Below, one piece after another: positions 7,915-37,315 of a stretch of DNA of 64,000 nt (position 1 is its first letter; each line of letters opens with the position of its first letter). The notes beneath the pieces were generated by a model. That model was not told the DNA's origin, did no database searches, and saw nothing but the letters and a program-made list of their open reading frames with translations. A program made the position numbers and the translations under genes. Source of the DNA: Nymphaea colorata (Eukaryota > Streptophyta > Magnoliopsida > Nymphaeales > Nymphaeaceae); the NCBI RefSeq assembly GCF_008831285.2, contig NC_045146.1:23763703-23827702 (forward strand), in the 5' to 3' direction.

Positions 7915-7996
7915 CTCCTGTTTCTGCTCTTCTTGTGAACGCAGAAACAATGAACAAGGTGAAGATGGTGATGCTGAACTCCTTTCCTTGATCTTC

Positions 7997-8300
7997 CTTT
8001 ATAGCTTCTTTCAAAGAGTAAACCGAATCTATATTTTTGAATCATGTACGAAGATGAGCATGTGGCCGAGAAGTCATGTCTACCTTCGGTCGCCATCAAT
8101 CTATGGACGTTAACGAGTTGTTAATTATTTGCATTTGTTTAGAGAAGAAACTGAGGTGGAGCATATGGGGTCACCTGGCTCTGTCTCTTCCTGACTCTTC
8201 TCCCTGATCAGAATTGAATGCCCACGAGTGCCTTGTCTTTGGCCCAACCAGCATACATTGCTGCACATAAAAACACGACAACTCAAATGATTCCCAATGA
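7997..8300 (-). promoter_or_regulatory. Promoter and 5' flank of DUF241 copy 3
   Basis: The minus strand reads GCTATAAAGG at 7997-8006, about 85 bp before the ATG at 7914. Upstream, the conserved block 'cccacgagtgccttgtcttt' plus 'ggcccaaccagcata' (about 8220-8254) matches the flank of copy 2. The strong similarity over about 300 bp indicates that the duplicated unit carried its promoter. Confidence 0.55.
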
Positions 8301-9927: not shown

Positions 9928-10800
9928 CTAGCACGCTGTCAAAGCGTTGAGAAGGAAGACCCTGGCCTTAATGAGACACCTGAACATTGTATCTAGCTCT
10001 GCTTCCGTTTCCCTCAAGCAAAGCTCCAAATCTACCATCCGTCTCTCTGCAATTTGAACTTCATTTTTCCTTTCACCTTCTGATGATGTGCAGGCATAAA
10101 GAGCGCGAAGAGCCTCATCCACTCTCTCGATTTCATTTTCTCCCACTTCATCCTCATTCTTCTCACATCTTCTAGAGCCAATGGATCTTAATTTTGAAAG
10201 AACAGATGCTGATCTCTTGTGCCCAGAGATCATCTGAACAAGTAGCTCAAATGTCGAAACTGTGCTGTCCTTTACGTCACATAGGATGCTGCCCACCACT
10301 TCATGATCATCGCCACGCACAGCACTTGTTTGAGATCTCATGCTCTTCAGCAAAGAAAGGCATTTGGTCATATCCTTCTTCATCCTTCTCCTGATGCCCC
10401 TGTAGAAAGCAATGCTCTCATGGAAGCTAGATTCTCTTCTGCGGAACAGGGAGCTAAGTCCCTGCAATTGCTCCCTCATCTGCACCAACGAGTCCTTAAC
10501 CATCCCACAAACATCCAGCAGGATCAGGAAATCATCCATCACTTGGCTGACATGGCTCTCCTTCTGTTGCAAGAATTGTTGAGAAAGAGGCATTTGAAGG
10601 AACTCATCCATGCAAAGGAACAGTTCTATGAGGTTTCTGAATCCACTGCAGAAGGAGCCACATGTGGTGCTTCGAGGTGAGGCCACTTCCCAACTTTTAA
10701 CCAAATGGAGGTAATCCTCCACTTTGCCCAATGTGGGGTGAGACGAGGAAGGCAAACTGGATGTACGTGTGTGAGAAGAGTTTACTTTGGGAACGGCCAT
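9928..10800 (-). CDS. DUF241 (PF03087) BPS1-like protein, copy 4
   Basis: An intronless 290-residue frame with the family layout: N-terminal MAVPKVNSSHTRTSSLPSSS; the block VMDDFLILLDVCGMVKDSLV at about 90-110; LSSLFRRRESSFHES; the basic block RGIRRRMKKDMTKCLSLLKS; DVKDSTVSTFELLVQMISG; an acidic insert (EKNEDEVGENEIERVDEAL); and the ending MFRCLIKARVFLLNALTAC. It is about ten residues longer than its neighbours because of the acidic insert, and it is clearly more divergent than copies 2 and 3 are from each other, so it belongs to an older branch of the array. A TATA-like TTTATAAG lies on the minus strand at about 10876-10883. The biochemical role is unknown. Confidence 0.9.
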   Translation of the reverse strand: MAVPKVNSSHTRTSSLPSSSHPTLGKVEDYLHLVKSWEVASPRSTTCGSFCSGFRNLIELFLCMDEFLQMPLSQQFLQQKESHVSQVMDDFLILLDVCGMVKDSLVQMREQLQGLSSLFRRRESSFHESIAFYRGIRRRMKKDMTKCLSLLKSMRSQTSAVRGDDHEVVGSILCDVKDSTVSTFELLVQMISGHKRSASVLSKLRSIGSRRCEKNEDEVGENEIERVDEALRALYACTSSEGERKNEVQIAERRMVDLELCLRETEAELDTMFRCLIKARVFLLNALTAC

Positions 10801-10875
10801 CCTTTCTCTCCCTTTCTCTTTGATGTTTGCACTTTGCAGTCAAAGATTGAATTGGGAAACGTTGTTTGCTCTCTT

Positions 10876-11250
10876 CTTATAAAGATGGTTGGAAGCAAAT
10901 GGAATCTCATCAAAGTTGGCGACGAATAATTAATATGATTGCCAGATGTGCGTGTTGCATATGAATTGATCCTCATGGTTGATGACTCCAGAATACATCT
11001 ATAACAGGGGAAGTCCTATAGATGGGATTGTCATTAAAGGATTCCTGTCTACACCAATGACGCTGTCATCATCTATGTCAGAGCTGCCATGCCTCTTAGC
11101 TACCCAACATCTGCTCTTAACTATTCAAGCCTGTTATACAACAGCATCTAACAGCATCAGTAGAAAAAGGGCGAGAAAATGGTGTGTTTCATTTGTACAA
11201 CAAAGGTGCCCTAAGTTGATGACATTACAGTCAGCAATTGAGTACTGAAG
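10876..11250 (-). promoter_or_regulatory. 5' flank of DUF241 copy 4
   Basis: The TATA-like TTTATAAG lies about 80 bp before the ATG. At about 11085-11120 the stretch 'gcctcttagctacccaacat' resembles the array's recurring motif at 14851-14870 and 14897-14918. The segment 11131-11250 is repeated, diverged, at 12069-12190 on the far side of the copia fossil. Confidence 0.45.
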
Positions 11251-11309
11251 AAAAGAAGCATAGTACAGAGCTATGGCAAACTAAACTTGCGAACTGACTT
11301 GGCTCAAGG

Positions 11310-11970
11310 CAATAATAACAGAGATGGGGTTTAACGTATCCTTTCCCATGAAACTACATTGTGACAATCAAGCTGCAATACATATAGCTGCAAACTCAAT
11401 GTTTCATGAATGGACAAAACACATTGAAATTGATTGTCATTTCATTCGTGAAAAAGTCCAAAATGAAAGTATTATTACACCGTTTGTTAGAAGTGAAGAT
11501 CAATATGTAGATATATTTACCAAACCCGTCACCAAAAACAAGTTAACCAACACCATGGCCAAGTTGGGAATTGTTAATCTTCACTCTTCCCAACTTGAGG
11601 GGGAGTGTTGAGCGGTTAACAAAAGGAGACTCTATAATGGGAAACCCAATTCATGATTGAAGATGACTGTTGATTCCTTAGAGACGTTTTCGTGGTTGCC
11701 ATCTCTATTGATTTCCTTCCCTCGTTATTACTTACCAAAGATTCAGTAACGGTATCTACACTCTCTATAAATTGATGCTCTACCATGTAACGAGTGTAGC
11801 AGGAAATATTCTCTTCTCATTCAATAAGAGCTCCTCCTTCCCATGGACGTAGGCAATTGAATGCCGAACCACTTATATGGTTGTCTCTAGTATTTTCACT
11901 AGATCTCGAGACAACTTTTTGCTTCTTACTTTTCCATGAAACTAGATTTCCTCCAATGGTTACACAATAG
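11310..11970 (+). mobile_element. Ty1/copia fossil, 3' end only
   Basis: The frame at 11324-11611 carries the RNase H-like end of a Ty1/copia polyprotein (landmarks CDNQAAIHIA, KHIEIDCHFIREK, YVDIFTKP). A purine-rich tract (gagggggag) follows, and then a probable 3' LTR beginning TGTTGAG at 11606. The far end of the LTR, taken as near 11970, is not certain. The 5' LTR, gag, integrase and most of the reverse transcriptase are absent, so the element is broken and truncated. I cannot date it because only one LTR is visible. Confidence 0.8.
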
Positions 11971-12068
11971 CTAGTGGTAGATCTTCTATCTTACTTACTG
12001 CCAGCCCATGTTTACCCACATTTGTTATTGATATGTTGTATATGTTTACCCACAGCTGTTATTGATAT

Positions 12069-12190
12069 GTTATACAACAGCATCTAACAACATCAATAGA
12101 AAAGGACGAGAAAAATGGTGTGTTTCATTCAGAAATAACAGGGCCTTTAGTGGATCACTTTACAATAAGCACAATTAATTACCGTATGGA
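12069..12190. repeat. Second copy of the DUF241 copy-4 upstream segment
   Basis: Diverged direct repeat of 11131-11250. Both contain 'tgttatacaacagcatctaa' followed by 'atcaatagaaaa/atcagtagaaaa' and 'aatggtgtgtttcatt'. The copia fossil lies between the two copies. This is a local segment duplication of the array's flanking DNA, not the target-site repeat of the transposon, because it is far too long. Confidence 0.65.
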
Positions 12191-12341
12191 ATCTTGGTCC
12201 TAAGTTTTGACATCTCTGCGTGGTTAGGACAGGAAGAGAGGTCCTTCTTGGTTCTTATTGATGTCTAGAGCACACTGCTCGTGGACGTGCAGCACCCTCT
12301 CTCTCCCAGTAAAATGCAATACGTCTTTTGCAGTGTCTGTT

Positions 12342-12720
12342 GCCACCATTTCCTTCTTTTCTTGTGATTTTGAATTTGAAAACGCAAGAAGATGATAGAT
12401 GGAACTGATAGCACCCCCTCTTTTATAAGTTAGGCTTATTACAGAAGACAAAAGTGCATGTGGTACATGACAGATTTTGCTTAATATGGCTACCATAGTT
12501 GGTGACAGAAAATGATATATCTCTTCTTTCTTTTTCCTCTCCGTCAGATATGGCGCTAAGATTCTTGTCTACACCATAACCGGTACTTGTCAAGCACCTA
12601 ACGAGTGGCTTGCCCCTCGGCCAACCAACATAGGAAGTAACTCTTGGTACCAATACGAATAGCGATTTCCCGTACATAAAGAAATTGCTTTCTCGATAAG
12701 CGAATGCGGGTGTGGCAGTA
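12342..12720 (-). pseudogene. DUF241 promoter and leader without a body
   Basis: On the minus strand this stretch has the same parts as the 5' end of the pseudogene at 13301-14172: a TATA-like TTATAAAAG (about 12420-12430), a leader with 'cgcaagaagatgatagatgg' (compare 'cacaagaagacgatgaagag' at 14233-14252), an ATG-type start near 12350, and upstream the motif 'acgagtggcttgcccctcgg' plus 'ccaaccaacat' (12600-12632). Downstream of the start no DUF241 residues can be read. I interpret it as the surviving 5' end of a lost gene copy; it could instead be a promoter duplicated on its own. Confidence 0.5.
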
Positions 12721-13300
12721 TATGCCTCCTAGAAATGGGTGGCTGCACATGTTATTCACACTGTATCCATGGTGAATTACAGAATAATATACCAGAAAGT
12801 GCATAATCTGCTTCAAGGGTGGAACCTATTTTGTTAGTATCCCACGTTCATTGATGCTTGCTCCATCATTAAATGATCAGCCATGAAATGGCATCAATCG
12901 CTATGCCTCCTCTTCGTCTGCAAGTTTAATACCGCTCCACGTGCAACCATGGAATGCTGGAAACTGTCCAATTGATTTTTGCTGTTTAATTGCATATGCC
13001 ACATAAATTGCTAGTAACTGAGTAACCACTCTTCACTTACAAAGGATTCTTAATCCTACAACTAATACGCAACAAGTGAGCAGTCGTAATAGCCATGTGA
13101 CCATGTCTCAGGCGCTCGGTAGTAAATAAGAAACAATTAAAATAGAATCAAAGCAATGGAAGAGAGCGCGAAAAAAATTGGAAGTAGACGTAATTTGATT
13201 TCTTTCATCAAAATTGGTGTATATATTTGTTGTACAAAAAAGTCTTGTGTATATATTCTACAGAATTTATTTTTTGCCCATGGGAACAATTACTAAAAGC

Positions 13301-14172
13301 CTAACTGCCCTTCAATATGTCCAGAAGGGATGCTCTAGGATTGATTAAGAACCTAGACAAACCCTCTACCCCTGCTTCAGTTTCTACGGAGATCCAAAGC
13401 CAACATCTGTCTTCGGGCCACTTGAATGACATCTTCTCTTGATTCATTCATCAGTGAAGGGCCATGAACAGCCTAAAGAGCCCCATCAAGCCTTTCAATC
13501 TCGCTCAAGCTGTGTCATCATCATTCTTGTCACATCTTTTGGAACCAAAAAAACTCAACCTTAAGAAAGCCGACTGTGGCGCCTTTTGCCTGAACATCAT
13601 TGGAATGAGTAGCGCAAACCCTCAAACATGCCGATCGTGTTCGCTATGACATCAACCAAGGTGCCACCAACCACACCATCTTCTACAACAGTTAACAGAC
13701 CTGTTTATTCTCATGTTTTTCAATGACTTCAAGCATTTGATCATGTCCCTTCTCATTCTCTTTCTGAAACTCTGATGAAGGCCAATGCTCTGATGGAGGC
13801 TAGAATGTCTCCTGCGTACCAAGGAATTGAGGATTTCAAGTTTCTCCCTCAATTGCGAGAAAGAACCCTCACCATATCCAAAATATCCAGAAGACCTACA
13901 AAGACTTCCAGCAATTCACTCACCAGAATCTCTTCTCCCCGCAGAAACTGTTGAGGGAGAGGGAGTTGTAGGAAGTCAATAGTTGAAAGGTGCAAGTCCT
14001 TAAGGTGGTTGATCCGATTCTTGACCGAGCTGCAGTCCTCCTCTTCAAAATTGATGCTTCTGCCGAACCTTTGAACAAATGAAGGCATTCCTCCACTTAG
14101 GGATACTGGAATGAGATGTGGAAAGCAAGCTAGCAGAGCGAAGATGGAAGGAGTTTGAGGAAGACGTTGCCA
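13301..14172 (-). pseudogene. Decayed DUF241 gene copy
   Basis: Starts MATSSSNSFHLRSASLLS at 14172, exactly like the intact copies at 18452 and 22193. It continues in pieces in more than one frame: HLKDLHLSTIDFLQLPLPQQ and VSELLEVFVGLLDILDMV (about 13865-14000), then LNSLVRRRHSSLHQSIGLHQ with RKRMRRDMIKCLKSLKNM (about 13700-13830), and ending FLINPRASLLDILKGS with a stop at 13301-13303. The order matches the family from start to finish, but several frameshifts separate the blocks, so it cannot make a normal protein. It is an older casualty of the same array. Confidence 0.85.
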
Positions 14173-14264
14173 TCTTCTTTTTCCTTTTCTTCTTTTTTTT
14201 TTTTTTCCCCTTGCGATGGCAAATTTGAAACCACAAGAAGACGATGAAGAGATCTGGCTAGTAA

Positions 14265-14500
14265 CCCCTCCTATAAGGTGGAAACTTAGGAGACATGTGG
14301 AATGTTTATTAGGATGGAAATCAGTAACGTACCAATAAATTGAAAATCTGCATGTGGTGGGTTTTGCTTGGTGGTGTCTACTAAAGACTGTGGCTTCAGA
14401 TCGCATTGAAAGATTCTTTGTCTAGACGACTACCAAAACTGTCCACCTCCACACGAGGGGCTTGCTCGTCGGCCAATCAGCATAAGTGGTGACCCATCAA
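14265..14500 (-). promoter_or_regulatory. 5' flank of DUF241 pseudogene
   Basis: A TATAGG-type sequence lies at about 14268-14275 (minus strand), roughly 100 bp before the former ATG. The array's upstream motif is at about 14452-14486: 'cacgaggggcttgctcgtcg' followed by 'gccaatcagcat'. It matches the flank of the relic at 12600-12632 in both sequence and spacing. Confidence 0.5.
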
Positions 14501-14825
14501 GTCCGAAAACATGACTGGGATTTTCACACAAACAAAGTCTCTGCACCCCAAAAATCTGATAGTTCATGAGTTTGCATGCAATTTGCTGGTGCGCAAAATT
14601 GAACAGGAAAAGTTAGATGGACAGACAATCAATACGTGCCATGCTTCAGAGTTGAGGCAAATTTAATCCGGGAAATCATGGCAACATTATCCTAAGCAAA
14701 CTTAATTCATAGCAGGACAGCATCCATAGTGGCGCGGACTGTGCTTGGAGCAGATCTGCTCTTTTGGTAGATGCAGCAAAAAAATTGTTGCTGCTTCAAT
14801 CAGGGAGTTGCTGTTCTGGCATTAG

Positions 14826-14917
14826 AGATAGTCAATTATCGCACGAGTGGCCTGCTCTTTATCTACCCAACAGATAGTCAATTATCGCACGAGTGGCCTG
14901 CTCTTTATCTACCCAAC
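14826..14917. repeat. Perfect 46-bp tandem repeat of the upstream motif
   Basis: The unit 14826-14871 is repeated exactly at 14872-14917. Each unit contains 'cacgagtggcctgctcttta' followed by 'tctacccaac', a variant of the motif seen upstream of DUF241 copies. No DUF241 body lies next to it on the minus strand side beyond the pseudogene about 650 bp away. Confidence 0.9.
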
Positions 14918-14919
14918 AT

Positions 14920-17900
14920 CTTGTTGATGCATGGTTGTATGGGCAGCTAATTTCCTTATAAATATAGATTTCTTTAGTACCAATTGGGTCGTTCCAGGGT
15001 TGAACTTGATGGACGCATAATTAATATAATGCATACTTACCATCGTTGAGGGTTAAAGAACAGATGAACGTGATCATTGCACCTGTTGACTGTAGTCTTT
15101 AAAGTTCTTTTCCTGAACATAAGTTGATAAAATATTGCTTTACACATGCGTTGTTGGTTGCCTCAGCTGTAAGGTCGGCCACGAAAGGAACTCAACCCTG
15201 CTCTTCCCCTGCTTCTGCTCAACACATGCACTACATAGAATCAGTCAAAATTAGATTGTTGCTCTTCACACGCATGCATATTCTAATGTTTCCTCTGCCT
15301 AATTCTTGAACCTGTCATGGAATGGGATTGTATAGGAGCCTAACAACCAACTTCTGACAACGAAAAGGACAATGAATGACCAAGAAGGGTCAATTGGTGC
15401 CGTTTTAAGTTGCCAACAACTGAAATGGAATTTGTGGTAGTAAACTTGTTTGACCCTTCCTAAATAATACTTTGATCTTGCTGACCTCCACAAACGGTAG
15501 TCTCATGGAGCAATTCTTAGATAGCAAGCACTAGCTCCCGGTGCTACTTCATAAAAAGCAAGAAAAGATAAGAGAGAATAGAATGAAACGCACGCTGTGA
15601 TAATTATAACGGTTCCTGCACCTAGAAAACGTCCGAAAGCACCTGCTACGGAACTGCCGAACAGGGGAATGCAAGTCTACTAGCACGTGATAAGTGAAGA
15701 AAAGAGCAAACAGAATTGGCGAGAATGTAAAACTCGTCTCAATGTGTTGAAGACGAGAAATGTGTTGATAAATTTGAGATGATAAGCAAGTGACAACAGA
15801 TATAGCGGGTCATATACAATATAGAAACAACACTAAATTGAAGAGAACTTTTTTTATGTATAAATCGAAATTTTGCAGGAGTACGAGTTGGACGGGTCCT
15901 TGATTGAACAATTATTCAACCACTGAATAAGGGTTACTGCAAATCCCGTGCATCTCTATGGATCATGGTTGCTGTGCATGCTGTCGCTAGCATATGAAGC
16001 TAAGTTTTGTTAACTCATAGATGATAAAAAGCAGCGAGTCTGATGCTCTGCTTCTATAAACTGAATTATCTTTATCTTCTTGCACACAGATGCACCGCAA
16101 AACGCTTGCAAAGGAGAGCCAACTGCATGATTAGAAGTCACACTTAGATTATTTTTTTTATGGTACTTACTGCTGTCAGCTTATGCCTAATAATTTTCAT
16201 TTTTTGAACTTATTGTGAGTAAAATCGAATATGAAAAATGCAGAGTCCCATGTATACAATATTCAGTTATTCAAAAAGCAAACTTCAGTGCGGAATACAA
16301 TTGTTGCCTGAGTTTGACTTATTCATCCATGAACTGCACACGCTTAGCCATTTGCTTTACGTTTCCTGTATTTACTTAGGAGTAACATTTATAACCAGAT
16401 GAATCTTACTTCATTGCAGTGTAGAAAAGTATGATGAAAAGAAACTTATAAATTTATTCCTTCTCCGTCAGTCATTGTAGCAGCCATGTCATTTCTGCAC
16501 AGACCAACTGCTGTTGCCTCCCATGTGTGTAAACTCTTTGTCTAGAAAATGAACACATCACTTCATTCATGTTCCTTGTCGACAAAATGCAATAGAGCTC
16601 ATTTCCAGCTGATGAAATGCATTTCATATACCTGCTCTGTGGGCAGAATTTTGCTATATTCAGAAGTCTTAGTATTTTCTAAGGTCATAGGACCAGTCTC
16701 TAGTAAACACTTTTGGTACGTTTGCGGTTCCTGTAGTACTGTTTCATTAGGCTGTGTTCCGGCCTAGAAGAAAGCTCCTTCTAAAGATAGAATTTGCTTT
16801 TTCGCAGGATCGTTAAAGCTCAAGCTGGTTTTTAAGAATCTTGCTGTTTGACCCCGATCTGTCTTTAAGCAAGCAAGACTACCTTGATGAAGAACTTATC
16901 CCGCATTCTCTACTGTAGGCATGTCAAATGCACTGTCCTTAAGCTGCGAATTTATCTGATTCTTGAGCTTATGGGCTCTTTCAATTGAAAAAGTTTCATT
17001 GACGAACATGTGGATTTTGTTGGATCTTTCTAGAGAGGAGATTATGCCGGAACCTTCTAGAGAGGAGATTACGGTAGAGAAATTGGAAGAGTTACCGTAA
17101 TCTCCTCTCTAGAAGGTTCCAGCATAATCTCCTCTCTAGAAAGATCCAACAGATTTTGGTGTCTCGATAGTTCTTTTCTGCAATAGTTTCATCTTATTTT
17201 GAAGGTCGAATTACGGGGGAGATATACAAGCAGCAGTTACAATTGTCTTTTCTTCACTTTGGTCAGACGGTGACCAAATGCTGCTACTGGTCATAGTAAT
17301 ACAGCTCCAATCACGAGCATTGCAACTCAAGTGGGTTTCTATTGTTATGTGAGAATGGAAAATTGATCTCTTGCAGGTTGAAGTTTCATGTACTACATGA
17401 CCGCATGTTTGGTTAAAAAATAGACTAAGCGTCCATTATTCGCATTTTGGGTCATGCTGTTGTCTATTATCAACAATATGATTGAGGCTTTACTAAGAAT
17501 ATTGTTCGGTCATGCTTTTTGTTTCTCATGGGATGAAGCATCCGTAGCATGCAACTGCGCAAGTCTTCATGTTGTTGCTGAAGTAAAAAATCCAGACAAC
17601 ATAGTAGTAAACTACACAAACTAGATTTAGTCCTTTTCTGATAGAGAAACTTATATTGAACCTGCAGGTTGGCTAAGTTTCGAATCGATGCCCAATTGCA
17701 CCGTTGGTGGCTTCTTTTGTTATCACTCCATACATGTACAGCCTTTCGCTTTTCTGATTCCTGGCCTATCAGATCCAAAATGGCCTAGCACAAAAAAATA
17801 TATTTCAGAGTAAGCTTACAATATCCAAACTATTGCAGAAGCTGGATAAGATTCTAACCATATCAGACTAATTGGCAGGGGCTGGTCCTGAATCCTCGAG

Positions 17901-18451
17901 TCTTTATCAGGCTCAACCTGCCAGAGGAATTGCTGAAATGAGAACTTGCCCAGACAACCTGAACCTTATTGTCCATGTCTGCTGTTGCATTTCAACGGCT
18001 TGATATCGAACTGTCGTGACTGCTTGATTAACAGTTACTTCTTCTACCATAGATAAATTGCAGTGGATCTTAACAAATATCAAGATTTTTCCAATAAATA
18101 TCTAAGATACTTCACTGTCAAAATTTTGGAGATAAATGGAGATAATGCCTTTTTATTTCTTTTCTTTTTTGACATCGTTCAAGATATAAAAGTTGAGAAA
18201 GCCTATCATGAAGAAATGACCGAAAGTGTCCGCTTAACCAAACCAACAAATCAAATAAAAAGAACAGAACTCCAATGCCATGATGCATGAAATCTTAGAG
18301 AGAGAGTCATAAACAGCAATCTTCGAGTAAGATAGATCTTTTTACTAATTTACAAATTTTATGTTGTACGGATATGTACATGAAGACAATTTCAACATTC
18401 GATACATCCTTCAAAATGGTGACCCTTGAGGGACTCAAAATGAGATTTATC
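14920..18451. other. Intergenic, no gene recognised
   Basis: Apart from the foldback at 17018-17151 I see no gene. The open frames (for example 15124-15309, 16549-16767 and 17470-17778) are short, have no recognisable domains and show no splice pattern I could support. The segment 18300-18451 is the 3' flank of the next DUF241 gene. Confidence 0.45.
17018..17151. repeat. Near-perfect 59-bp foldback (hairpin)
   Basis: The left arm 17018-17076 and the right arm 17093-17151 are reverse complements with a single mismatch that I can find (C at the left arm against T in the reverse-complemented right arm, a G:U-type difference). The loop is the 16 nt at 17077-17092. Within each arm the block 'tctagagaggagatta' occurs twice. 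It could be a MITE, a truncated inverted LTR pair, or a small-RNA-producing hairpin; sequence alone does not decide. Confidence 0.9.
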
Positions 18452-19291
18452 CTAACAGCATGTTAAGAAGTTGAGGAGGGCGGCTCTTGCAGTGATCAAG
18501 CTCCTAAACACTCCCTCCAACTCATCTTCGACCCCCGTCAAGCACGACTCCAAATTTTCCATTAGCCTTTTCACGTATTGAACGCTGTCCTCTGCTAATT
18601 CTTTGTTCGGATGGCCACACAGAGCAAACATAATCACATCCAACCTCTCAATTTCGTTGGTCTTCCCTTCAGCACCGCCACCATCATGTTTCTTTGAACA
18701 TCTTAACTTCGAGAAGATCGACCCTAGGGAGTTGCGAGCAGAGATTATTGATGCAAGCTGCTCGAACGTGGCTACTGTATTAGCTCGGACATCTCTCAGG
18801 ATTTTTTCAACCTTGCTATCATTTGTGGACGACCCATCAGCTTCCATGGTTTTCAACAGCTGCAGGCATTTGATCATGTCCTTCCTCATGCTCTTCCTCA
18901 TGCATTGGTATCTACCGATGCCGACATCAAGATTCTGATCCCTTCTGCGGAACATCGACTGAAGGGCTTGCTGCTCCTCTCTCATACGCTGCACTGAATC
19001 CTTCACCATCCCACACACATCAAGCAATCTCAGAAAGTCATCCATCAGTTGGGTAACAAAGGTGTCCTTTCTACAGAGAGCTTGCTGTGTGTGAGCCATT
19101 TGCAGGAAGCCATCAATGCAGCAGAAGAGGTCCTTAAGGTGGCCAAGTCCGGTGCTTGTCAAGCTGTGTGGCTTGGCCTGCCATTCTTTTGCAGCCTCAA
19201 GGCATTCTTCCACTCGGCGCAAGATGGGGTTTGAACTTGTGGGCAAGCTGATGGACCTTGCGTGGAAAGAGTTTGAGGATGATGTTGCCAT
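18452..19291 (-). CDS. DUF241 (PF03087) BPS1-like protein, copy 6
   Basis: An intact intronless frame of 279 residues. MATSSSNSFHARSISLPTSS is followed by FVTQLMDDFLRLLDVCGM (about 78-95), the conserved LQSMFRRRDQNLDVGIGRYQ, the basic RKSMRKDMIKCLQLLKTM, LRDVRANTVATFEQLASIIS, and the ending LEGVFRSLITARAALLNFLT with a final CC. A TATA box (TATATAAG, minus strand, 19363-19370) lies about 75 bp before the ATG. It is closest to the copy at 22193-23029, with matching motifs throughout and a related 5' flank, so these two form a second, younger pair in the array. The biochemical function of the family is not established. Confidence 0.92.
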   Translation of the reverse strand: MATSSSNSFHARSISLPTSSNPILRRVEECLEAAKEWQAKPHSLTSTGLGHLKDLFCCIDGFLQMAHTQQALCRKDTFVTQLMDDFLRLLDVCGMVKDSVQRMREEQQALQSMFRRRDQNLDVGIGRYQCMRKSMRKDMIKCLQLLKTMEADGSSTNDSKVEKILRDVRANTVATFEQLASIISARNSLGSIFSKLRCSKKHDGGGAEGKTNEIERLDVIMFALCGHPNKELAEDSVQYVKRLMENLESCLTGVEDELEGVFRSLITARAALLNFLTCC

Positions 19292-19362
19292 TTCTCACTG
19301 TCTTTCTTGCCTTGCAGAAATGAAATGTCGTGGTTTTGATGATGAACATCCCCGCGGCTTCT

Positions 19363-19370
19363 CTTATATA
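19363..19370 (-). promoter_or_regulatory. TATA box of DUF241 copy 6
   Basis: TATATAAG on the minus strand, 72 bp or so before the ATG at 19291. The same spacing is seen for the other intact copies. Confidence 0.6.
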
Positions 19371-19415
19371 AAGACTGGCTAAGAGACAAGTGGAATCTTG
19401 CCCTGTTGGTAGCAT

Positions 19416-22192
19416 TTAGTGAGCATGTGGGAGATGTATATGCGCCATTGGCTTTCTCATTCGTATTGAATTTGTATTCTGTTTATATGAGAAAAACAGG
19501 TGTACGTGGGGACAATGAAGAATCAAAGGGCCGTGAGGATTAATTGATAATCTTTTGTTGGGATCGATTTCTTAAGAAAGCTGTGTCGTTAGGTGCGTAA
19601 CATTAGTGGGTAGAAACCTGCAGGATGAGCTGATGGTTGATTGCGTCATACATTGTCTTTGATCTGACGTCTCTAGTGATTTTATATGAACCTCATTGTA
19701 TATATTATTCTTGCTAGCATTGCTTGCTTCACCTAATTTGGAGTTCCAATCAAGATTGTAACATCTTGTTTAGAACAACTGGGAATCGTTTGAATGTTGG
19801 TAATTATGAAAAAGAATGATGGCTACGTCTACTGAATTGATTGAGTTATCAAGTCTTTCTGGGCCACCAACCGGCAGTAGTCTATAGCCATCAGGCGAAT
19901 ACTACAGGAGCTACATTCAGATGATCATGTATTCTTAAGAAGATAGATTACTGCCCCAGGTGTAAAAAATAGTTTAGAAATAGTCAGCATTGAAAGTTCT
20001 CAAGAATGTTTTCAACCCTTGTGGCATACCCCCGAAATGCCATTGAAAGTATTTGGATACACAGCCCTTCCATGTACCGATAAGATCTAAATCCACTGAA
20101 GAAATCGATAAAAGGCTACCAAATTGGCCCGCCTATACTGATTGAACTAATTTGAAATGAAATAGAGAAATTTGTTCATTCAAATTCAGAATCCCTTTGT
20201 AGATACCACCTGTTCATTCACTCTGACTAAGCTTTTAACCTTAAGGCGCAAAAACAACGATCGGCCTCGAATCTCTATGGTTGTTAACAAAAGGAAAGAC
20301 GACTTCTGTACAAGGAGATTTTCAAAACAGGAGACTTGGATTGTAACAGAAAAGGTGCTGCCCAAATGAAAATTCTTACCTCCAATTTATGAGTTAGGTA
20401 TGGGCTTCACCAAAGACTTCGAATTATTAATTCCACGCACACCGACAGGCAGCCAGATCACACGCATAACGTAAGCACATACCTTTCATTAAGAATGTGG
20501 GCCTGACCATCGAGAACCTTCCAGTTATTAGTATCGGCCCCCCGTGCACGCCATCCATGCAATATCCAACTGACAGCGACAGAACACATGTGTCCTTCCC
20601 GCTTGACGCACCACGTGGCACAACTAGTTTCAGGTCCAGGGTGCCTTGGATTGGAAGATTGCATTGTACAGCTTCCTTTTTAAAGAAGAAGGCCCCTCTG
20701 ATCGTGCCATCATCATAAATTTAATGACAGAACAACTGTTGGCGATGGGCTGGCGTCTTCCAGTTGCCATCAGTGGGGCTCGTTTTTAGCATTATTGAAC
20801 TGTTCTTGTTACCTAGAGAAGGTGTGGTAAAGAGTACTCATTGAGTTAAAAGATCAAGTTTCATCAAGTTTGAACTTTTTCATAGTTTTGTGCTCGTAAT
20901 TGGAAGTTTGGGAGGTCAAACAAGGATTTGCTCATTGGGGAGTTCTTTGTCATCAAACGAACAAAAGTTACTTTTAATTATTGCATAGATTTGGGACAAA
21001 AGTCTGCCCAAGGCTGCCTGGCAGCCACTCCGTTCATGGTGATGAGAAAATATTTTGCCAAAACAATTCTATCCTCTTGTTAATGAAGCTCAAAAGAAAT
21101 GTTAACGGACCGACTTCGTTAAAATGTGTATCGCAGTAGCACAAAGGTAATGCAGACAAGTATTCAGGGCAGCATACCCTTTACCTCATATGAACCGTCA
21201 TCAACAAGCTTCTCACGTGTAGAGTTAGGTTCGAGTTAGAGCTATCTTGATTGACGCATAAGCTATGGTCACAACTGCGCAATGGTGGCATCAAGCTGAA
21301 TGGTGAGAGAAAGTTCAGCATTCAGTGTAAGGCAATGATCAATCCGTTTGATTGTAAGACATTTAGCAACCAGCTAGCTGGGAACTTTCTGTCAGTGCAG
21401 TCTTTCTTAAATAATGTAGTTAGTGCAATGACATTCAGAAAAATGACATGCTCTGGTAGAGTCTTACTTGTTACAATTCCTGTCGTTCGTAGTCAGTGAT
21501 TTGCCAAGTCCCGAGGAGCCCTCTTCTTCTAAACTATTTAAAGACAAATCTTCTGTTATGTTAAGAAGACTATACGGTGGTCGAACGCTAGGAAGAACTC
21601 TTCGTGCTGCGTTGGGCAAAAGCTTGGCTCGTAACGGTTGCCACCTTGCAAAAGTTGACCCCCTATAAGCACATTATGTACCAAACACCGTTTATTATAG
21701 TGCATCCTCAGCTTTTTCATGTCCTTTTTTGTAAAATGTGGTAGTCAAGGCTCGGTCAGGTTTTCTCTTCAAGGAGCAGGTTCATTGTTCTTACATTTGG
21801 AAATATTTTTGTCACAAAAAAAAAAAAAACAAACAAAATTTTTGTTGTGCATAAATAGTTGGTTTAAATGGGTTAGAGGCAAGATCATGGTGCTAAAGTT
21901 TAATCTTGTCAAATCACCCACCCATGAGTCCATCTTGTCATTGTCGTGTCATAAATACACCGACAAATTGATAAGACCTTTAATGGGACCTGGCATTCTA
22001 CACAAAAATAATGGAGATAGAAGAGAGAGACGGAAGGAGACCTCAATTGAGAAAGAGAAACAGAGAATCACAAGCAGAAATTTTGGAGAAAGATAAATCG
22101 TTACTATACACAAAAAATTTACACATGAACAAAATTTACATCTATTAAAGTTCGGATGCTAAGGTGAAGCTCTGGAGAATGAAACGGTCATC
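19416..22192. other. Intergenic, no gene recognised
   Basis: The first 150 bp share short blocks with the 5' flank of the next copy (23130-23280), such as 'gggacaatgaagaatcaaag' against 'gggataatcaggaaccaaag'. The rest shows only short, featureless open frames. The segment 22080-22192 is the 3' flank of the next gene. Confidence 0.45.
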
Positions 22193-23029
22193 TTAACTGC
22201 ATGTTAAGATGTTGAGAAGGGTGACTCTTGCATTGATCAAGCACCTAAACACGCCTTCCAACTCATCTTCAACCCCCCTCAAGCACCGATCCAAATTTTC
22301 CATTAGCCTCTGCGCAGATTGAACACTATCTTCTGCCAATTCCTTGTTCAATTGGCCACACGCAGCAAACAGAGCCGCATCCAGCCTCTCTATTTCATTG
22401 ATGTTCTCTTCGTCGGGGCTATTTTGTCTCTTTGAACTCAACAATCTTGAGAAGACAGACCAGGAGGGGTTGCGTGCGGAGATGATCGATGCCAGAAGCT
22501 CAAACACATACACTGTATTGGTTTTCACGTCTCTTAGAATGGCCTCGACCTTACAATCATCAGAGGGAAATGCAAGAACTTCCATGGTTTTCATCATTTG
22601 CTGGCATTTGATCATCTCTTTTCTCATTCTCTTCCTCGTGGACTGATATCGGCTGATACCAACATGTAGATTTTGATCCCTTCTACGGAACATTGACTGA
22701 AGTGCTTCCTGCTGCTCTCGCATCTGCTGCACTGAATCTTTCACCATCCCACACACGTCCAACAGTCTCAGGAAGTCATCCATCAATTGGTTGACAAACT
22801 TCTCCTTCCTGCGGAGAGCTTGCTGACTATAAGCCATTTGCAGGAAGTTGCCAGTGCAGAAAAAGAGATCCTTGAGGTGGGCAAGGCCATTGCTTGTCAA
22901 GCTATGTGGCTGGGCTTGCCAACCCTTAGCGACCGCAAGACATTCTTCCACTCGGTGCAAGATTGGGTTGGTTTTTGTGGGCAAGCTGATAGATCTGTGG
23001 CTGAAAGAGTTTGAGGAACAAGTTTCCAT
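22193..23029 (-). CDS. DUF241 (PF03087) BPS1-like protein, copy 7
   Basis: An intact intronless gene of 278 residues from the ATG at 23029 (METCSSNSFSHRSISLPTKT), chosen because it aligns with the starts of its paralogues. The frame stays open upstream to an ATG at 23101, which would add 24 unconserved residues. Landmarks: FVNQLMDDFLRLLDVCGM, LQSMFRRRDQNLHVGISRYQ, RKRMRKEMIKCQQMMKTM, LRDVKTNTVYVFELLASIIS and the ending LEGVFRCLINARVTLLNILT. A TATA box (TATATAAC, minus strand, 23109-23116) lies about 80 bp upstream. It is the sister of the copy at 18452-19291 and the last recognisable member of the array in this window. Confidence 0.92.
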   Translation of the reverse strand: METCSSNSFSHRSISLPTKTNPILHRVEECLAVAKGWQAQPHSLTSNGLAHLKDLFFCTGNFLQMAYSQQALRRKEKFVNQLMDDFLRLLDVCGMVKDSVQQMREQQEALQSMFRRRDQNLHVGISRYQSTRKRMRKEMIKCQQMMKTMEVLAFPSDDCKVEAILRDVKTNTVYVFELLASIISARNPSWSVFSRLLSSKRQNSPDEENINEIERLDAALFAACGQLNKELAEDSVQSAQRLMENLDRCLRGVEDELEGVFRCLINARVTLLNILTCS

Positions 23030-23108
23030 TTCTCTCTTCATTCTTTGCGTATCGGCGAGAAGAAAGTTTTGGTTTTTGAACCTTGAAGATGAAGGAGGCA
23101 CGGCGCTT

Positions 23109-29412: not shown

Positions 29413-29417
29413 TCAAC

Positions 29418-32377
29418 TGTAAGACCCACGATCTCTTTTTCCTTATCCTTTTGTAATTGTCAAGTTTATCATAAAGGAGGTTATAACTGCAAAGGGTAAA
29501 TGGAAAGGGGGAAAAGAAACTGAAAACAAAACTCGTATGGTAATTTTGAAGGAGTCTTAATAAGGGCCTATTTAACCACGTTTTACAGCAATTAATTTCT
29601 CATTGTGCTGCAGCCCTAAACGAGAGAGTCCAGCAATAGAGAGAGAGGGAGAGAGAGAGAGAAAAAAAGAAGGAGAAGGGTTTACACGAGAGAGTCCAGC
29701 AATAGAGAGAGAGGGAGAGAGAGGGAGAGAGAGAGAGAAAAAGGAGAAGGGTTTACAATTCTGCTCTCTTCGCAGAGGAGATCAAGGAAAGGGGCTGTGG
29801 AAGAGAAACAAGAAGACGGCTGTTGACGGATTTTGATTTTTACAGGTATGGGAAGATTTGGCTATGAGTGAATCATGAAGCCCGTGTAATTTGTGATTGC
29901 TTATAAGTGTATACGCATGGAGATTTATGTGTTTATACTACCAGATATGAATCCATGCGTGAAACGTTGAATAATGAAGATGTTATACAATGTCTCTAGT
30001 TCGAGTTTTCTCTGAGTTTCTATAAGTAAAACAAGCTAAATATAGATGTGTCGTGTGAGGCATGATGATTTTAGTTGAGTTTTGAAACTCTCGGTTTTCT
30101 GTATTATGCTATGTATGTTCATCCGTGAGAAAACAAAGCTACAATCAACCCTAAAACCGAGCATGAATATCTATGTTAATGGCTTTGTTAGAGGATTCGA
30201 TCAAACTAGAAGAAAGAAACTGGTATACCAGAACCCTCACGGAGGGTCTGGCCACAGAGCATGCTACGCACATCTTAGCGGGAAGACTCTGCTGTCATCC
30301 CGAACCTAATATATGATGAAAAAAAAAAAAAAAAAAGCAACTGTCCAAACGTTGTCAACAGAGGGCAGGGGCTGCTCTGCTCAACTTAGGGTAAAACCCA
30401 AATACAGCAAGCAAATAAGAAAAAGGGGAAGGAATGACCTCGTGCTCTATCGACGTGGAGAGCAGTCGCCCGATCGACTGGAAATCAGCCGTTTCCTCAT
30501 GCGGGTAGCAGAGGGGCGACTTGGGTAAGGGAAGAATCCGACCGTGAGTGTACAGATTTCTGCCTGTCACGCCTCTTCATCTGTCGGTTCCTCCCTATCG
30601 CAGTGAGATGGAGACGAAGCAGGACGCCATTGAAGCTCTGGGTTTGGGAGGTCGTCTCCCTCACAGCGGCAGGGTTGAGAGACGACGGCAGAGGATGAGG
30701 CGGCGGCAGCTGGTGGCGTCGGTCGGTAGGTGGGCGTGGCGGCATTGAACCCTAGCCCCAGAACATGCGGGAGGAAGACGATCTCTCCCTCTGGTCTCGT
30801 TTTTCTCTGGCTTGGGTTGCTAAAGAACGGTGGAAGCTCCACCATTGGGCGAAACCAGAAGACGAGGAAGGAGCGCCGATAAGAGAGAGAAAATCAAGCG
30901 AAGAAATGAGAAATTTTAAGGTTCGACAGGTTTTATATTATGTTCAGAATTTTCAAAAGTAGTCCACCTTATTAGTGAAATTCTTGAAAAAGCTGTTATA
31001 ATTTCTAGAAATTCATGTTGTAACGTTTTTGTTGAAAACTTTTTCAGAAAGAGGCTTGCGAAAGTTATTTTCAATAAAAACGAGAGATTTCATTCGAAAT
31101 TGCAATTTGGTACCCTCTGAGTTCTTAAAAATTGCCAAAAATGGGTTTTATAAGATTTGTTTGTAATTTCAGTAGAAAACCGAAATGTTATGCATTATTG
31201 CTCCTTGGTACCATGAGTTTGCTTCAAAATTTCAGAAAAAGGTTCTGAAATTAAATTCGGAATAATAACCACGTTCTGAAAATTTAAATGTAAATTTCTT
31301 GTTCTCAAATGATGATTATAATATCATTATTTGAAGTTCTTGAACGTGATATACTTTGTGTCTATTTGACTTCGCTTTGTGGCCATTAAATTAAAGTTAG
31401 ACATGGCTTATTGCTTCTACTTGGGAAACCGAGCCTGAGTGTGGTTTCTATAAGAAGTAATAGATGAGGTCTAGTAATGATAAACCCTCGCATTTGAAGT
31501 TCATAGGCGAAACGTGGACTATGTATACATTGGTATATGCGAGTGCGAGCTTGTGTTTTGCCCAGTGTTTGGTTTCGTCCTGGGAGGTAGTGGAGCGCCT
31601 GAGGTCAGTGTTGACGCACACTCCTCTGTCTGCACTGGAGGGCCCACAGGGTATTGGACGGCACAAAGGCCCAGGATATTGTTATGTTTCTCCTGAAGAG
31701 CAAGGCGTCTCTTGGTCTCTCACCCCGAGTTCCAAGAGAGACCCTGCTGCTGCTGCAGCGCTCTGGGATATCTCAGGATGTTTCACTGCAGGTTAACCTC
31801 GATCTGTTGGATCGCCTGGTGAAGATATGTTCTGTTTTGCCCATGAGTGCCCACGAGGATTTCTATTGATGCTCGGCACCATGACCATACCCAATGTAAT
31901 GATAGGCCACAGTCGGAAGTCTACGAAATTTTGGAGGTTTTGTATACCTCGTTTCTGTTAATGAATCGTAATTCTAATACGGGCTAAGATTTGGAGTCTT
32001 ATGGTTGTGGTTCCTAAGGCCCTTATATGAATTCGTTTTACAAAATCAAATATTATTTTGTTGGGCCATGTTCCATTCATGGCTCGACTTTTTCATACTC
32101 AAAGGAATTCTGACCCTTTTTTCTATCTCTACAGGTAGTTTTTGATAGTTTATGGATCATGGAATGACGACCTCAGTCTTGTGATGGACGGGCATTCTGA
32201 ACACTGCGTCGGTTTTGGGCTCTGTGTTTTTTTTAGTTGTTTGGGTCCAAGTCTTTTTTATTGTTGAAATCAATAAATACAGTGTATTTGATTTGGTTTT
32301 GGTCATGACTCAATGTTACTTCCGCTATTATTTATATTAAAGAAAAAAAAATTGGAGTCAAAAATTGGGTCGTGACA
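29418..32377 (+). mobile_element. Left LTR of the palindromic gypsy element
   Basis: Starts TGTAAGACCC and ends TTGGGTCGTGACA, about 2.96 kb, which is long for an LTR and fits the Del/Tekay-like or similar gypsy groups. It includes a GA-rich tract (about 29636-29750) that carries a local duplication of roughly 74 bp not present in the right LTR. The primer-binding site follows directly. Open frames inside it are not recognised as genes. Confidence 0.85.
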
Positions 32378-32381
32378 ACTT

Positions 32382-32393
32382 TGGTATCAGAGC
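32382..32393 (+). other. Primer-binding site (initiator tRNA-Met type)
   Basis: TGGTATCAGAGC follows the LTR end after a few bases. This is the common complement of the 3' end of plant initiator tRNA-Met. Its mirror, gctctgatacca, lies at 34390-34401 for the right half. Confidence 0.9.
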
Positions 32394-32578
32394 ACGCTGT
32401 CTAGAGTTCATGTCCAATGCCAAATATCGATCACAAGCAGAGGAAAGGTCATCCAAGTCTGTTAGAGAATGGTGTTTTTGATTTATTGTGAATTTTGAGT
32501 TTTAAAGTAGTCTTAACGGATTGTTTTACTTACAAATACAACTGTTATATTTTGTTTTCCTTTGTGCGGTGTAGTTCA

Positions 32579-33324
32579 ATGGCACGCACTACAGGAGTGA
32601 GTGTTAGTGGAAGACGGAGAACTCCTCGCAACACCAGGAGCCGAAACGTGGAGACTCATCCTATTGGACCTAGGACACCTGTCGGAAACATCCAACAACA
32701 ACAAGCGTTCATTATGAACACCTTGCATATGATTACGGGGTTGGTGCATGGACTGGCGCAGAATGTTCCTTCAGGAGGAACTAGTACGGATACAAAAGGA
32801 ACAATGAATGGTGAAGCAAGGGGCGCAACTCACCAACAGTTTATGAGCTTGCATCTTCTAAAGTTCCATGGGAAAGGCACTGCTGACGATGCATAAGAGT
32901 GGATAAAAGAAACCGAGAAGATTTTTACCGCCCTGGAAGTGCCTGACAACAAGAAGGTTCGGTATGGAACCTTTATGTTAAAGGGAGATGCTGAGGGATG
33001 GTGGCAGACACAACGTGAAGTGAAATTCGCAAATCACGAAGCGACTTGGGAAGAATTCAAGGAAGCCTTCACATATGCTTACATCTCAGCCTTCACACGG
33101 GAGAAACATATGCAAGAATTCTTGGAGCTTCAACAAAGGAGTACGAGTCTACACGAATACGTCGTCAAATTCAGACACTTGGAAAAATATTGCCCCTATG
33201 TGTACACTTCTGATACGAACAGAGCAAATAAGTTCATCAGATGACTTAAAGACGGGTTGCGAAGCAAAGTAATGGGTAATTGCCCACGAGACTTGAACGA
33301 TGCGATTGACATGGCCACACATTT
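32579..33324 (+). pseudogene. Gypsy gag fossil, left half
   Basis: Gag-like coding sequence of the Retrotrans_gag type (PF03732), with the landmark WWQTQREV and a following FREKHMQEF-like helix region characteristic of plant gypsy gag. It begins with an ATG about 200 bp after the primer-binding site. It is broken, with a few breaks, and is cut off on its 3' side where it meets a piece of LTR. No zinc knuckle or pol follows. Confidence 0.85.
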
Positions 33325-33544
33325 TGGGATATCTCAGGAGGCTTCAATGCAGGTTACCCTCGATCTGTTGGATCGCCTGGTGAAAATATGTTTTGTTCTG
33401 CCCGTGAGTGCCCACAAGGATTTCTGTTGTTGCTCGGCACCATGACCATACCCAATGTAATGATAAGCCACGATCGGAAGTCTACGAAATTTTGGAGGTT
33501 TTGTACACATCGTTTCTGTTAATGAATCGTAATTCTAATACGGG
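33325..33544 (+). mobile_element. LTR piece in the palindrome spacer
   Basis: About 220 bp match the left LTR at 31764-31983 in the same orientation, from 'tgggatatctcagga' to 'aattctaatacggg'. It sits between the left gag and the right, inverted gag, so it is neither a complete LTR nor in the place an LTR belongs. It is best read as a junction piece from a rearrangement. Confidence 0.85.
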
Positions 33545-33559
33545 AGCAATACTTTTCCA

Positions 33560-34197
33560 GTATCAGAAGTATACACATGGGAGCAGTACTTTTCCAAGTG
33601 TCTAAATTTGACGACGCATTCGTGCAGACTCATACTCCTTTGTTGAAGCTCCAAGAATTCTTGCATATGTTTCTCCCGTGTGAAGGCTGTGATGTAAGCA
33701 TGTGTGAAGGCTTCCTTGAATTCTTCACAAGTCGCTTCGTGATTTGCCAACTTCACTTCACGTTGTGTCTGCCACCATTCCTCAGCATCTCCCTTTAACA
33801 AAAAGGTTTCATACCGAACCTTCTTGTTGTCAGGCACTTCCAGGGTGGTAAAAATCTTTTCGGTTTCTTTTATCCACTCTTATGCATCGTCAGCAATGTC
33901 TTTCCCATGGAACTTTGGAAGATGCAAGCTCATAAACTGTTGGTGAGTTGCGCCCCTTGCTTCACCATTCATTGTTCTGTTTGTATCCGTACTAGTTCCT
34001 CTTGAAGGAACGTTCTGCGCCAGTCCATGCACCAACCCCGTAATCATGTGCAATGTGTTCATAATGAACGTTTGTTGTTGTTGGATGTTTTCGACAAGTG
34101 TCCTAGGTCCAGTAGGATGAGTCTCCACGTTTCGGCTCCTGGTGTTGCGATGAGTTCTCCCTCTTCCACTAACACTCCCTCCTGTAGTGCGTGCCAT
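33560..34197 (-). pseudogene. Gypsy gag fossil, right half (inverted)
   Basis: Mirror copy of the left gag on the minus strand, with the same Retrotrans_gag landmarks (ATG equivalent at 34197). It is broken and shorter than the left copy. It closely matches the left copy by eye. Confidence 0.85.
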
Positions 34198-34405
34198 TAA
34201 ACTACACCGCATGGAGGAAAACAAAATATAACAGTGGTATTTGTAAGTAAAGCAATCCGTTAAGACTACTATAAAACTTTAAAACTCAAAATTCACAATA
34301 AATCAAAAACATCATTCTCTAACAGGCTTGGATGACCTTTCCTCTGCTTGTGATCGACATTGACATTGGACATGAACTCTAGACACCGTGCTCTGATACC
34401 AAACT

Positions 34406-37310
34406 TGTCATGACCTAATTTTTTACACCAATTTTTTTTCTTTAATATAAATAATAGTGGAAGTAACATTGAGTCGTGATCAAAACCAAATCAAATACAC
34501 TGTATTTATTGATTTCAACAATACAAAACACTTTGACCCACACAACTAAAATAAACCCAGAGCCCAAAACCGACGCAGTGTCCAGAATGCCAATGTCCGT
34601 CCGTCACAAGACTGAGGTCGTCACTCCATGAGCCATAATCTATCAAGAACTACCTGTAGAGATAGAAAGAAGGGTCAAAATTCCTCTGAGTATGGAAAAA
34701 TCCAACCATGAATGGAACATGGCCCAACAAAATAATGTTTGATTTTGTAAAACAAATTCATATAAGGACCTTATGAACCACAACCATAAGACTCCAAATC
34801 TTAGCCCGTATTAGAATTACGATTCATTAACAGAAACGAGGTGTACAAAACCTCCAAAATTTCGTAGAATTCCAACTGTGGCCTATCATTACATTGGATA
34901 TGGTCATGGTGCCAAGCAACAACAGAAATCCCCGTGGGCACTCACGGGCAAAACAGAACATATCTTCACCAGGCGGTCCAACAGATCGAGGGTAACCTGC
35001 AGTGAAACCTCCTGAGATATTCCAGATCGCCGCTGCAGCAGCAGGGTCTCTCTAAGAACCCAGGGTGAGAGACCAAGAGATGTCTTGCTCTCCAACAGAA
35101 ACAAAACAAAATCCCGGGGGTGAGAGACCAGGAGATGTCTTGCTCTCCAACAGAAACAAAACAAAATCCCGGGCCCTTGTACCGCCCAATACCCTGTGGG
35201 CCCTCCAGTGCAGACAAAGGAGTGTGCGTCAACAGTGAGCTCAGGCACTCCACTACTTCTCGGGACGAAACCAAACACTGGGCAAAACACAAGCTTGCAC
35301 TCGCATATACCAATGTATACACAGTCCACGTTTCACCTACGAACCTCAAATGCGAGGGTTTATCATTAGTAGACCTCATCTATTACCTCACACAGAAACC
35401 ACCCACAGACTCGGTTTCCTAAACAGAAGAAATAAATCGTTTCTAACTTTAATTTAATGGCCACAAAGCAAAGTCAAATAGACACAAAGTATATCACGTT
35501 CAAGAACTTCAAATAATGATATTATAATCATCATTTGGGAATAAGAAATTTACATTTAAATTTTCAGAACGTGGCTATTACTCCGAATTTAATTTCAAAA
35601 CCCTTTTCTGAAATTTTGAAGCAAACTCAGGGTACCAAGGAGCAATAGTGCATAACATTTCGGTTTTCTACTGAAATTACAAACAAATCTTATAAAAACC
35701 CCCTTTGGGCAATTTTTAAGAACTCAATACCAAATCGCAATTTCGAATGAAATCTGTCGTTTTTATTGAAATAACTTTCGAAAAGCCTCTTTCTGAAAAA
35801 GTTTTCAACAAAAACGTTACGACATGAATTTCTAGAAATTATAACAGCTTTTTCAAGAATTTCGCTAATAAGGTGGACTACTTTTGAAAATTCTGAACAT
35901 AATATAAAACCTGTCGAACCTTAAAATTTCTCATTTCTTCGTCTGATTTTCTCTCTCTTATCGGCGCTCCTTCCTCGTCTTTTGGTTTCGCCCGACGGTG
36001 GAGCTTCCACCGTTCTTCAACAACCCAAGCCAAAGAAAAACGAGACCAGAGGGAGAGATCGTCTTCCTCCCGCATGTTCCGGGGCTAGGGTTCAACGCCG
36101 CCACGCCCACCGACGCCACCAGTTGCCGCTGCCTCGTCCTCTGCTCTCGTCTCTCAACCCTGCCCCAAACCCAGAGCTTCAATGGTGTTCTGCTTCGTCT
36201 CCATCTCGCTGCGATAGGGAGGAACCGACAGATGAAGAGGCGTGACAGGCAGAAATCTGTACACTCACGGTCAAATTCTTCCCTTACCCAAGTCGCCCCT
36301 CTGCTACCCGCATGAGGAAACGGCTGATTTCCAGTCGATCGGGCGACTGCTCTCCACGTCGATAGAGCACGAGGTCATTCCTTCCCCTTTTTCTTATTTG
36401 CTTGCTGTATTTGGGTTTTACCCTAAGTCGAGCAGAGCAGCCCCTGCCCTCTGTTGACAACGTTTGGACAGTTGCTTTCTTTTTTTTCATCATATATTAG
36501 GTTCGGGATGACAGCAGAGTCTTCCCGCTGAGATGTGCGCAGCATGCTCTGTGGCCAGACCCTCCGTGAGGGTTCTGGTATACCAGTTTCTAGTTTGATC
36601 GAATCCTCTACCAAAGCCATTAACATAGATATTCATGCTCGGTTTTAGGGTTGATTGGAGCTTTGTTTTCTCACGGATGAACATACATAGCATAATACAG
36701 AAAACCGAGAGTTTCAAAACTCAACTAAAATCATCATGTCTCACACGACACATCTATATTTAGCATGTTTTACTTATAGAAACTCAGAGAAAACTCGAAC
36801 TAGAGACATTGTATATCATCTTCATTATTCAACGTTTCACGCATGGATTCATATCTGGTAGTATAAACACAAATCTCCATGCGTATACACCTATAAGCAA
36901 TCACAAATTACACGGGCTTCATGATTCACTCATAGCCAAATCTTTCCATACCTGTAAAAATCAAAATCCGTCAACAGTGGTCCTCTTGTTTCTCTTCCAC
37001 AGCCCCTTTCCTTGATCTCCTCCGCGAAGAGAGCAGAATTGTAAACCCTTCTCCTTCTTTTTCTCTCTCTCTCTCTCTCCCTCTCTCTCTATTGTTGGAC
37101 TCTCTCGTTTAGGGCTGCAGCATAATGAGAAATTATTTGCTGTAAAATGTGGTTAAATAGGCCCTTATTAAGACTCCCCCAAAATTACCATACGAGTTTT
37201 GTTTTCAGTTTCTTTTCCCCCTTTCCATTTACCCTTTGCAGTTATAACTTCCTTTATGATAAACTTGACAATTACAAAAGGATAAGGAAAAAGAGATCGT
37301 GGGTCTTACA
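34406..37310 (-). mobile_element. Right LTR of the palindromic gypsy element (inverted)
   Basis: On the minus strand it runs from TGTAAGACCC at 37310 to a TCATGACA-type end at 34406, about 2.9 kb, with the initiator tRNA-Met primer-binding site beyond. It is a mirror of the left LTR with small differences spread along its length and without the extra GA-region duplication. One segment at about 35040-35170 contains a short direct repeat ('gagatgtcttgctctccaac') that the left LTR lacks. Confidence 0.85.
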
Positions 37311-37315
37311 TCAAC

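Follow-up and report, generated by a model that had tools for sequence, protein, structure and literature searches.

How can a retrotransposon come to lie in a chromosome with the same end of its long terminal repeat (LTR) at both borders? This question is raised by a 64,000-nucleotide stretch of the Nymphaea colorata genome (contig NC_045146.1, positions 23,763,703 to 23,827,702 of the forward strand), referred to here in its full length as the window, in which the insertion at 29418-37310 consists of the front half of a Ty3/gypsy element, apparently a chromovirus, repeated in inverted orientation over 7,893 bp, with an LTR, a primer-binding site (PBS) and part of gag in each arm. Its borders are two unique 3′ (U3) ends, instead of the usual one U3 end and one unique 5′ (U5) end. 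Taken as a whole, our data make it likely that this insertion is the integrase product of an abnormal complementary DNA (cDNA).

Anatomy of the window insertion

The two LTRs, which span 29418-32377 on the plus strand and 34406-37310 on the minus strand, are inverted with their U3 ends outermost, and no direct-orientation LTR pair encloses the coding region. The left LTR is complete, running from its U3 start to a U5 end with the PBS behind it, and in both arms the LTR has TG...CA ends and is followed by a tRNA primer-binding site, TGGTATCAGAGC, which we take to be of the initiator-methionine type (left arm, 32382-32393, plus strand; right arm, 34390-34401, minus strand, with the same sequence). 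The termini of the element are TGTAAGACCCACGA and its reverse complement, with the U3 end TGTAAGACCC at both. The arms extend over 29418-33216 and 33560-37310, and their coding content is limited to partial gag, located at 32579-33245 on the plus strand (with a Pfam Retrotrans_gag match on 32897-33244) and at 33560-34197 on the minus strand. An in-frame TAA interrupts gag in the left arm (32894-32896, plus strand) and likewise in the right arm (33880-33882).

The pentamer TCAAC adjoins the left U3 end at 29413-29417 and the right U3 end at 37311-37315; two random 5-mers from the window would be equal with a probability of 0.0014. The first-pass annotation had described this locus as a palindromic insertion with inverted arms of LTR, PBS and partial gag, with the same LTR end at both outer edges and a single 5-bp repeat, tcaac, bracketing the whole, and this description was borne out by our analysis. 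The structure could instead be an assembly or library artefact, caused by a palindromic read or a misjoined repeat, but artefactual palindromes would be near-identical, and these arms are only 94.5% identical over 3,622 aligned columns (Kimura two-parameter distance [K2P], 0.057), with 13 indel events. The right arm contains a 56-bp tandem duplication at 35063-35173. In addition, only one genome match exists for the right flank, and the 68 bp adjoining the left edge had no second genome match among the matches listed. An artefact is therefore extremely unlikely.

The identity of the family was read from a relative in the same genome, L039 (C11:17694800-), which has matches to Retrotrans_gag, RVP_2, RVT_1, RNase H, Integrase_H2C2 and SH3_Tf2-1, together with a Chromo match (E 4.9e-5) just under the curated cut-off. 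Judged by these domain matches, the family to which the window element belongs appears to be a Ty3/gypsy chromovirus.

Double-U3 insertions across the genome

The whole 408-Mb genome (783 contigs) was searched with patterns of the U3 end, comprising one allowing at most one mismatch (100 of 152 sites listed), a TGTAAGB type (41 of 41) and a TGTAAGA type (100 of 104 listed). At least 149 distinct U3-end sites were tabulated, with some one-mismatch sites on later contigs lying outside the table. Within 15 kb of each other, the 149 tabulated sites formed 38 same-direction pairs (two of them less than 600 bp apart), 3 divergent pairs and 5 convergent pairs. At four of these five convergent pairs lies an insertion with identical 5-mers next to its two outer U3 ends: the window insertion, a 9,039-bp insertion at C8:4972813 (TGAAA), a 6,760-bp insertion at C3:14446560 (GTAGG) and a 2,434-bp insertion at C2:10563889 (ACTAT), the match in the last case using the outer of two right-hand U3 ends and not the neighbour in the table. 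At 0.0014 per pair, and with C2 counted as a match, such agreement in four of five pairs would arise by chance with a probability of ~2e-11. The fifth pair, C11:20753291/20765993, is a nested arrangement without matching 5-mers. An ordinary insertion of the family, from C11:20753291 to ~20770987, has its U3 and U5 ends both flanked by TGGAT, a 5-bp repeat. At least two, and probably three, other insertions of this family thus resemble the window palindrome.

The matching pentamers also bear on an alternative in which two ordinary elements entered the site head-on, in opposite orientations, and both 3′ halves were later deleted. Members of this family do occur as nested or inverted neighbours (L031/L049, L033/L034), but outer 5-mers left by different events would match with a probability of only ~0.0014, and they match at four loci. 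Moreover, at the window and at C8 the two arms of a locus are closer to each other than to any other copy read, and we consider head-on insertion very unlikely.

Other inverted arrangements were also inspected. L032/L044 and L031/L049 read as nested insertions and L033/L034 as a rearranged locus, and L035/L036 was dismissed as an LTR-end insertion since its polypurine tracts lie inside and its PBS outside. The combined L035 and L036 locus (C10:19524337-19534944) is a 10.6-kb palindrome in the assembly, 98.7% identical, composed of two 3′ halves with LTR and PBS outside. By eye, there was no opposed U5-U5 pair within 15 kb among 100 of 129 U5-end places listed, obtained with a pattern that leaves out ends with G as the sixth flanking base and also catches some unrelated sequences. 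The region at C5 ~26157000-26168754 is a candidate U5-U5 counterpart of the palindromes; at L024 ~2440 (C5:26165390), part of an inverted 5′ LTR abuts a piece that runs in the other orientation and comprises the integrase end, polypurine tract and 3′ LTR. Triples of U3 ends at near-equal spacing (3.85-4.47 kb) were observed at L045 (C11:18671000-), L046 (C1:33717500-), C2:16106305, C3:24955573 and C6:16174264. The two of these loci that were read, L045 and L046, are tandem LTR-gag units, a structure that suggests an origin from joined cDNAs or from unequal exchange; the other three were recognized by spacing only.

Centres, arms and the proposed double-U3 molecule

The centre of the window palindrome (33217-33559) is more than a simple loop and consists of three pieces of 108 bp, 220 bp and ~15 bp. 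The first (33217-33324, plus strand) belongs to the left molecule only and continues gag and beyond, the right molecule ending ~108 bp earlier. The second (33325-33544, plus strand) is a piece of LTR interior in left-arm orientation, 93% identical to 31764-31983 and 92% identical to 34805-35024. The third (33545-33559) is a templated junction filler resembling the right-arm stretch that starts near 33580. The junction of the window thus comprises a 2-bp overlap into the LTR patch followed by copied filler, whereas C8 has a direct joint with ~4 bp of common sequence, C2 a low-complexity overlap of ~6 bp and C3 a less clear joint with little overlap, so that overlaps of 2-6 bp are present at three of the four junctions. 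The arms end in the first half of the LTR in C2, late in the LTR in C3, in gag in the window, and near the protease end, just before the reverse transcriptase match, in C8 (judged by position on L039). The four palindromes are separate insertion events because their centres sit at different positions of the element, whereas copies of a single palindrome would all have the same centre. The arms of the window and those of C8 also formed two distinct groups in the tree.

The first-pass annotation had left room for fusion by autointegration, in which a cDNA end attacks the same or a second cDNA and the resulting inverted form is then integrated. Autointegration of LTR cDNA is reportedly known for Ty1, and the right-hand piece of C3 ends only ~15 bp before the U5 end (by eye). 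In this reaction, however, an LTR end would be linked precisely to an internal position, and no exact U3 or U5 end was found at the centre of any of the four palindromes, which makes this route highly improbable and leaves that part of the annotation unsupported. Its other proposal, that an already palindromic cDNA was integrated by two identical U3 ends, is the best fit to the exact ends and the matching 5-mers at four loci, and the further insertions with inverted arms and 5-bp repeats that it had envisaged do occur in this genome (C8, C3 and, as a weak case, C2).

From the sequence of these ends and flanks, it appears very likely that a preformed double-U3 molecule was integrated by integrase. 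The starting molecules would be cDNAs without their 3′ parts, and two cDNA left ends would have been joined tail to tail through short overlaps and occasional copied filler, most likely through host alternative end joining, of the DNA polymerase theta (Pol theta) type, at work on the cDNA; the outcome would be a linear molecule bounded by U3 ends on both sides. Integrase would then pair the two identical U3 ends, and ordinary concerted strand transfer would produce the usual 5-bp repeat; integrases are known to accept two identical ends in vitro. As an element, the inserted product is expected to be a dead end, for it has no correctly oriented 3′ LTR. The short overlaps and copied filler are compatible with alternative end joining, and we lean slightly towards end joining over template switching as the source of the double-U3 molecule. 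In the review PMC12786077, on the basis of cited work on fly and mouse elements, alternative end joining of the Pol theta type is described as mediating second-strand transfer of LTR cDNA, and plants are stated there to possess an alternative end-joining pathway.

The arms themselves inform on their parentage. Over the first 300 bp, the window arms are 96% identical to each other, with the best other genome copies reaching 84% over ~236 bp (shorter stretches up to 89%); in gag, the corresponding values are 95% between arms and 90% for the best other copy. In trees, in which the arm pairs of the window and C8 were tested, the window arms were sisters with support of 100/99 for gag and U3 and 100/98 for the LTR end. 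The C8 arms were also sisters, and support ranged from 98 to 100 across the window and C8 pieces. The TAA in gag of the window arms was present in none of the 16 other gag copies covering this codon. Because the arms are sisters and have this private stop in common, both are, on tree and stop codon together, from one source lineage whose gag was by then defective, unless the stop was spread by later conversion. Assuming that the arms started out identical when the element was inserted, the K2P distance of 0.057 would place the window insertion at an age of ~2 million years, with a substitution rate of 1.3e-8 per site per year.

Several observations weigh against the integration of a preformed, end-joined double-U3 molecule and are considered together here. 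The 5-bp repeat was checked on only one ordinary insertion of the family (n=1). In a search for empty sites, in which the flanks were joined with one repeat copy and compared with the same genome, the window and C3 had no match across the junction among the matches listed (29 of 29 candidates scored), and at C8 a single paralogous site spanned the junction, with a weak match (68% over 177 bp). For C2, all 40 listed matches crossed the junction (40 of 187 candidates scored), but the 10 of these paralogous sites that were examined all lacked 5 bp still present in the joined C2 flanks once one repeat copy had been taken out, contrary to the simple reading of C2; C2 lies in a repeat, and its paralogous sites belong to that repeat. 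C2 also has three U3 ends. Part of its right arm (L051:2031-2305) repeats the left U3 end in inverted form, along with the 5 flanking bases, which indicates that C2 was probably altered after insertion. Furthermore, end joining and polymerase template switching predict near-identical junctions. Finally, divergence is uneven along the arms of the window, C8 and C3 (permutation p 0.0004, 0.0002 and 0.0002, respectively), the three loci covered by this and the following tests on arm differences. The arms of these loci differ by 5.5%, 5.4% and 9.5%, and 13, 20 and 20 indel events separate them, a degree of difference that speaks against a read or assembly artefact.

The unevenness persisted without CpG-type sites, and for transversions alone the p values were 0.01 for the window, 0.16 for C8 and 0.017 for C3. 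When each palindrome was examined for two different parent molecules, both arm states were observed among relatives at 25/43 and 100/153 differing sites in the window, 21/39 and 77/169 in C8 and 33/51 in C3, where an approximate null gives 35-46% (differing sites represented in fewer than three relatives were dropped). In C8, the balance of derived changes shifted from 25 left and 49 right in the outer block to 44 left and 20 right in the inner block (Fisher p 7e-5, with blocks chosen after seeing the data). The uneven divergence may reflect mosaic parents or later conversion.

The same observations bear on template switching or fold-back during reverse transcription, in which the plus strand at gag would jump to another plus strand or fold back, be copied to the U3 end and then be integrated. 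The 220-bp LTR patch and the copied filler resemble successive jumps, and the window arms are sisters with a private stop in common. Derived changes were also balanced overall between left and right arms (79 versus 95 in the window, 86 versus 90 in C8 and 21 versus 26 in C3, dropping sites with fewer than three relatives or without a 60% majority), as would be expected if the arms were identical at insertion. Simple fold-back, however, yields a one-ended hairpin and thus needs a further step, and the uneven divergence also counts against this route, although it is weaker for transversions alone and could have been caused by gene conversion. We regard template switching as the main competing explanation, possible but less likely than not.

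Implications and relation to known systems

Collectively, these loci are evidence at the level of the genome that, in vivo, a retrotransposon integrase can carry insertion to completion on a pair of identical U3 ends; they also preserve junctions of abnormal cDNA that are otherwise lost. Their centre sequences are a record of cDNA joining, whether by host end joining or by reverse transcriptase, and this question thereby becomes testable in plants with known repair mutants. The findings suggest that an element's own enzyme still accepts wrongly joined copies for insertion. Since standard LTR finders seek direct LTR pairs, double-U3 insertions are likely to escape them or to be recorded as broken or nested copies. 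With their inverted arms, the loci are also candidates for producing hairpin RNA directed at all members of the family. The combined proposition that tail-to-tail joining is a recurrent side path of this chromovirus, that its integrase readily inserts double-U3 molecules and that the loci, with LTR promoters facing inward on an inverted repeat of several kilobases, make hairpin RNA silencing the family in trans, as the Mu killer locus silences Mutator in maize, is, as one joint claim, unlikely.

Elsewhere in the window, a minus-strand tandem cluster of six similar open reading frames (ORFs) occupies 4324-23101, and the five that were scanned (one of them short) match Pfam BPS1. An ORF of 169 amino acids at 43975-44484 matches Pfam Dehydrin (E 8e-15). 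BPS1 and dehydrin are plant protein families, and these genes accord with the plant source of the DNA.

Among the titles listed from the open-access literature, none reports palindromic or double-U3 LTR insertions in a genome, subscription papers lying mostly outside the search. The element family and the enzyme reaction are known, and it is the substrate and the product that we found unrecorded. Compared with a Ty3/gypsy chromovirus (Metaviridae), the window arms correspond to the 5′ part of such an element, but the window element has neither the 3′ half nor a 3′ LTR in ordinary orientation and turns two U3 ends outward. It has no pol and retains gag only, as do TR-GAG and other non-autonomous LTR elements. 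The tandem LTR-gag units L045 and L046 in the same genome have LTRs of ~2.6-2.9 kb and internal regions of ~1.56 kb. TR-GAG-like elements, however, have direct LTRs and a polypurine tract, whereas the window palindrome has inverted LTRs and no polypurine tract.

Inverted-repeat dimers of transfer DNA (T-DNA) in plants offer a parallel to the proposed route, in that host end joining links two copies head-on and leaves short overlaps and filler at the joint, but T-DNA has no integrase and no fixed-length target repeat. DIRS-type elements also have inverted terminal repeats but use a tyrosine recombinase, make no target repeat and encode unrelated proteins. Aberrant cDNA forms, such as two-LTR circles, autointegrants and Ty1 circles, are similarly products of end joining or of misdirected integrase, as reviewed in PMC12786077. 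Those forms are extrachromosomal, whereas the form in the window is integrated with a target repeat.

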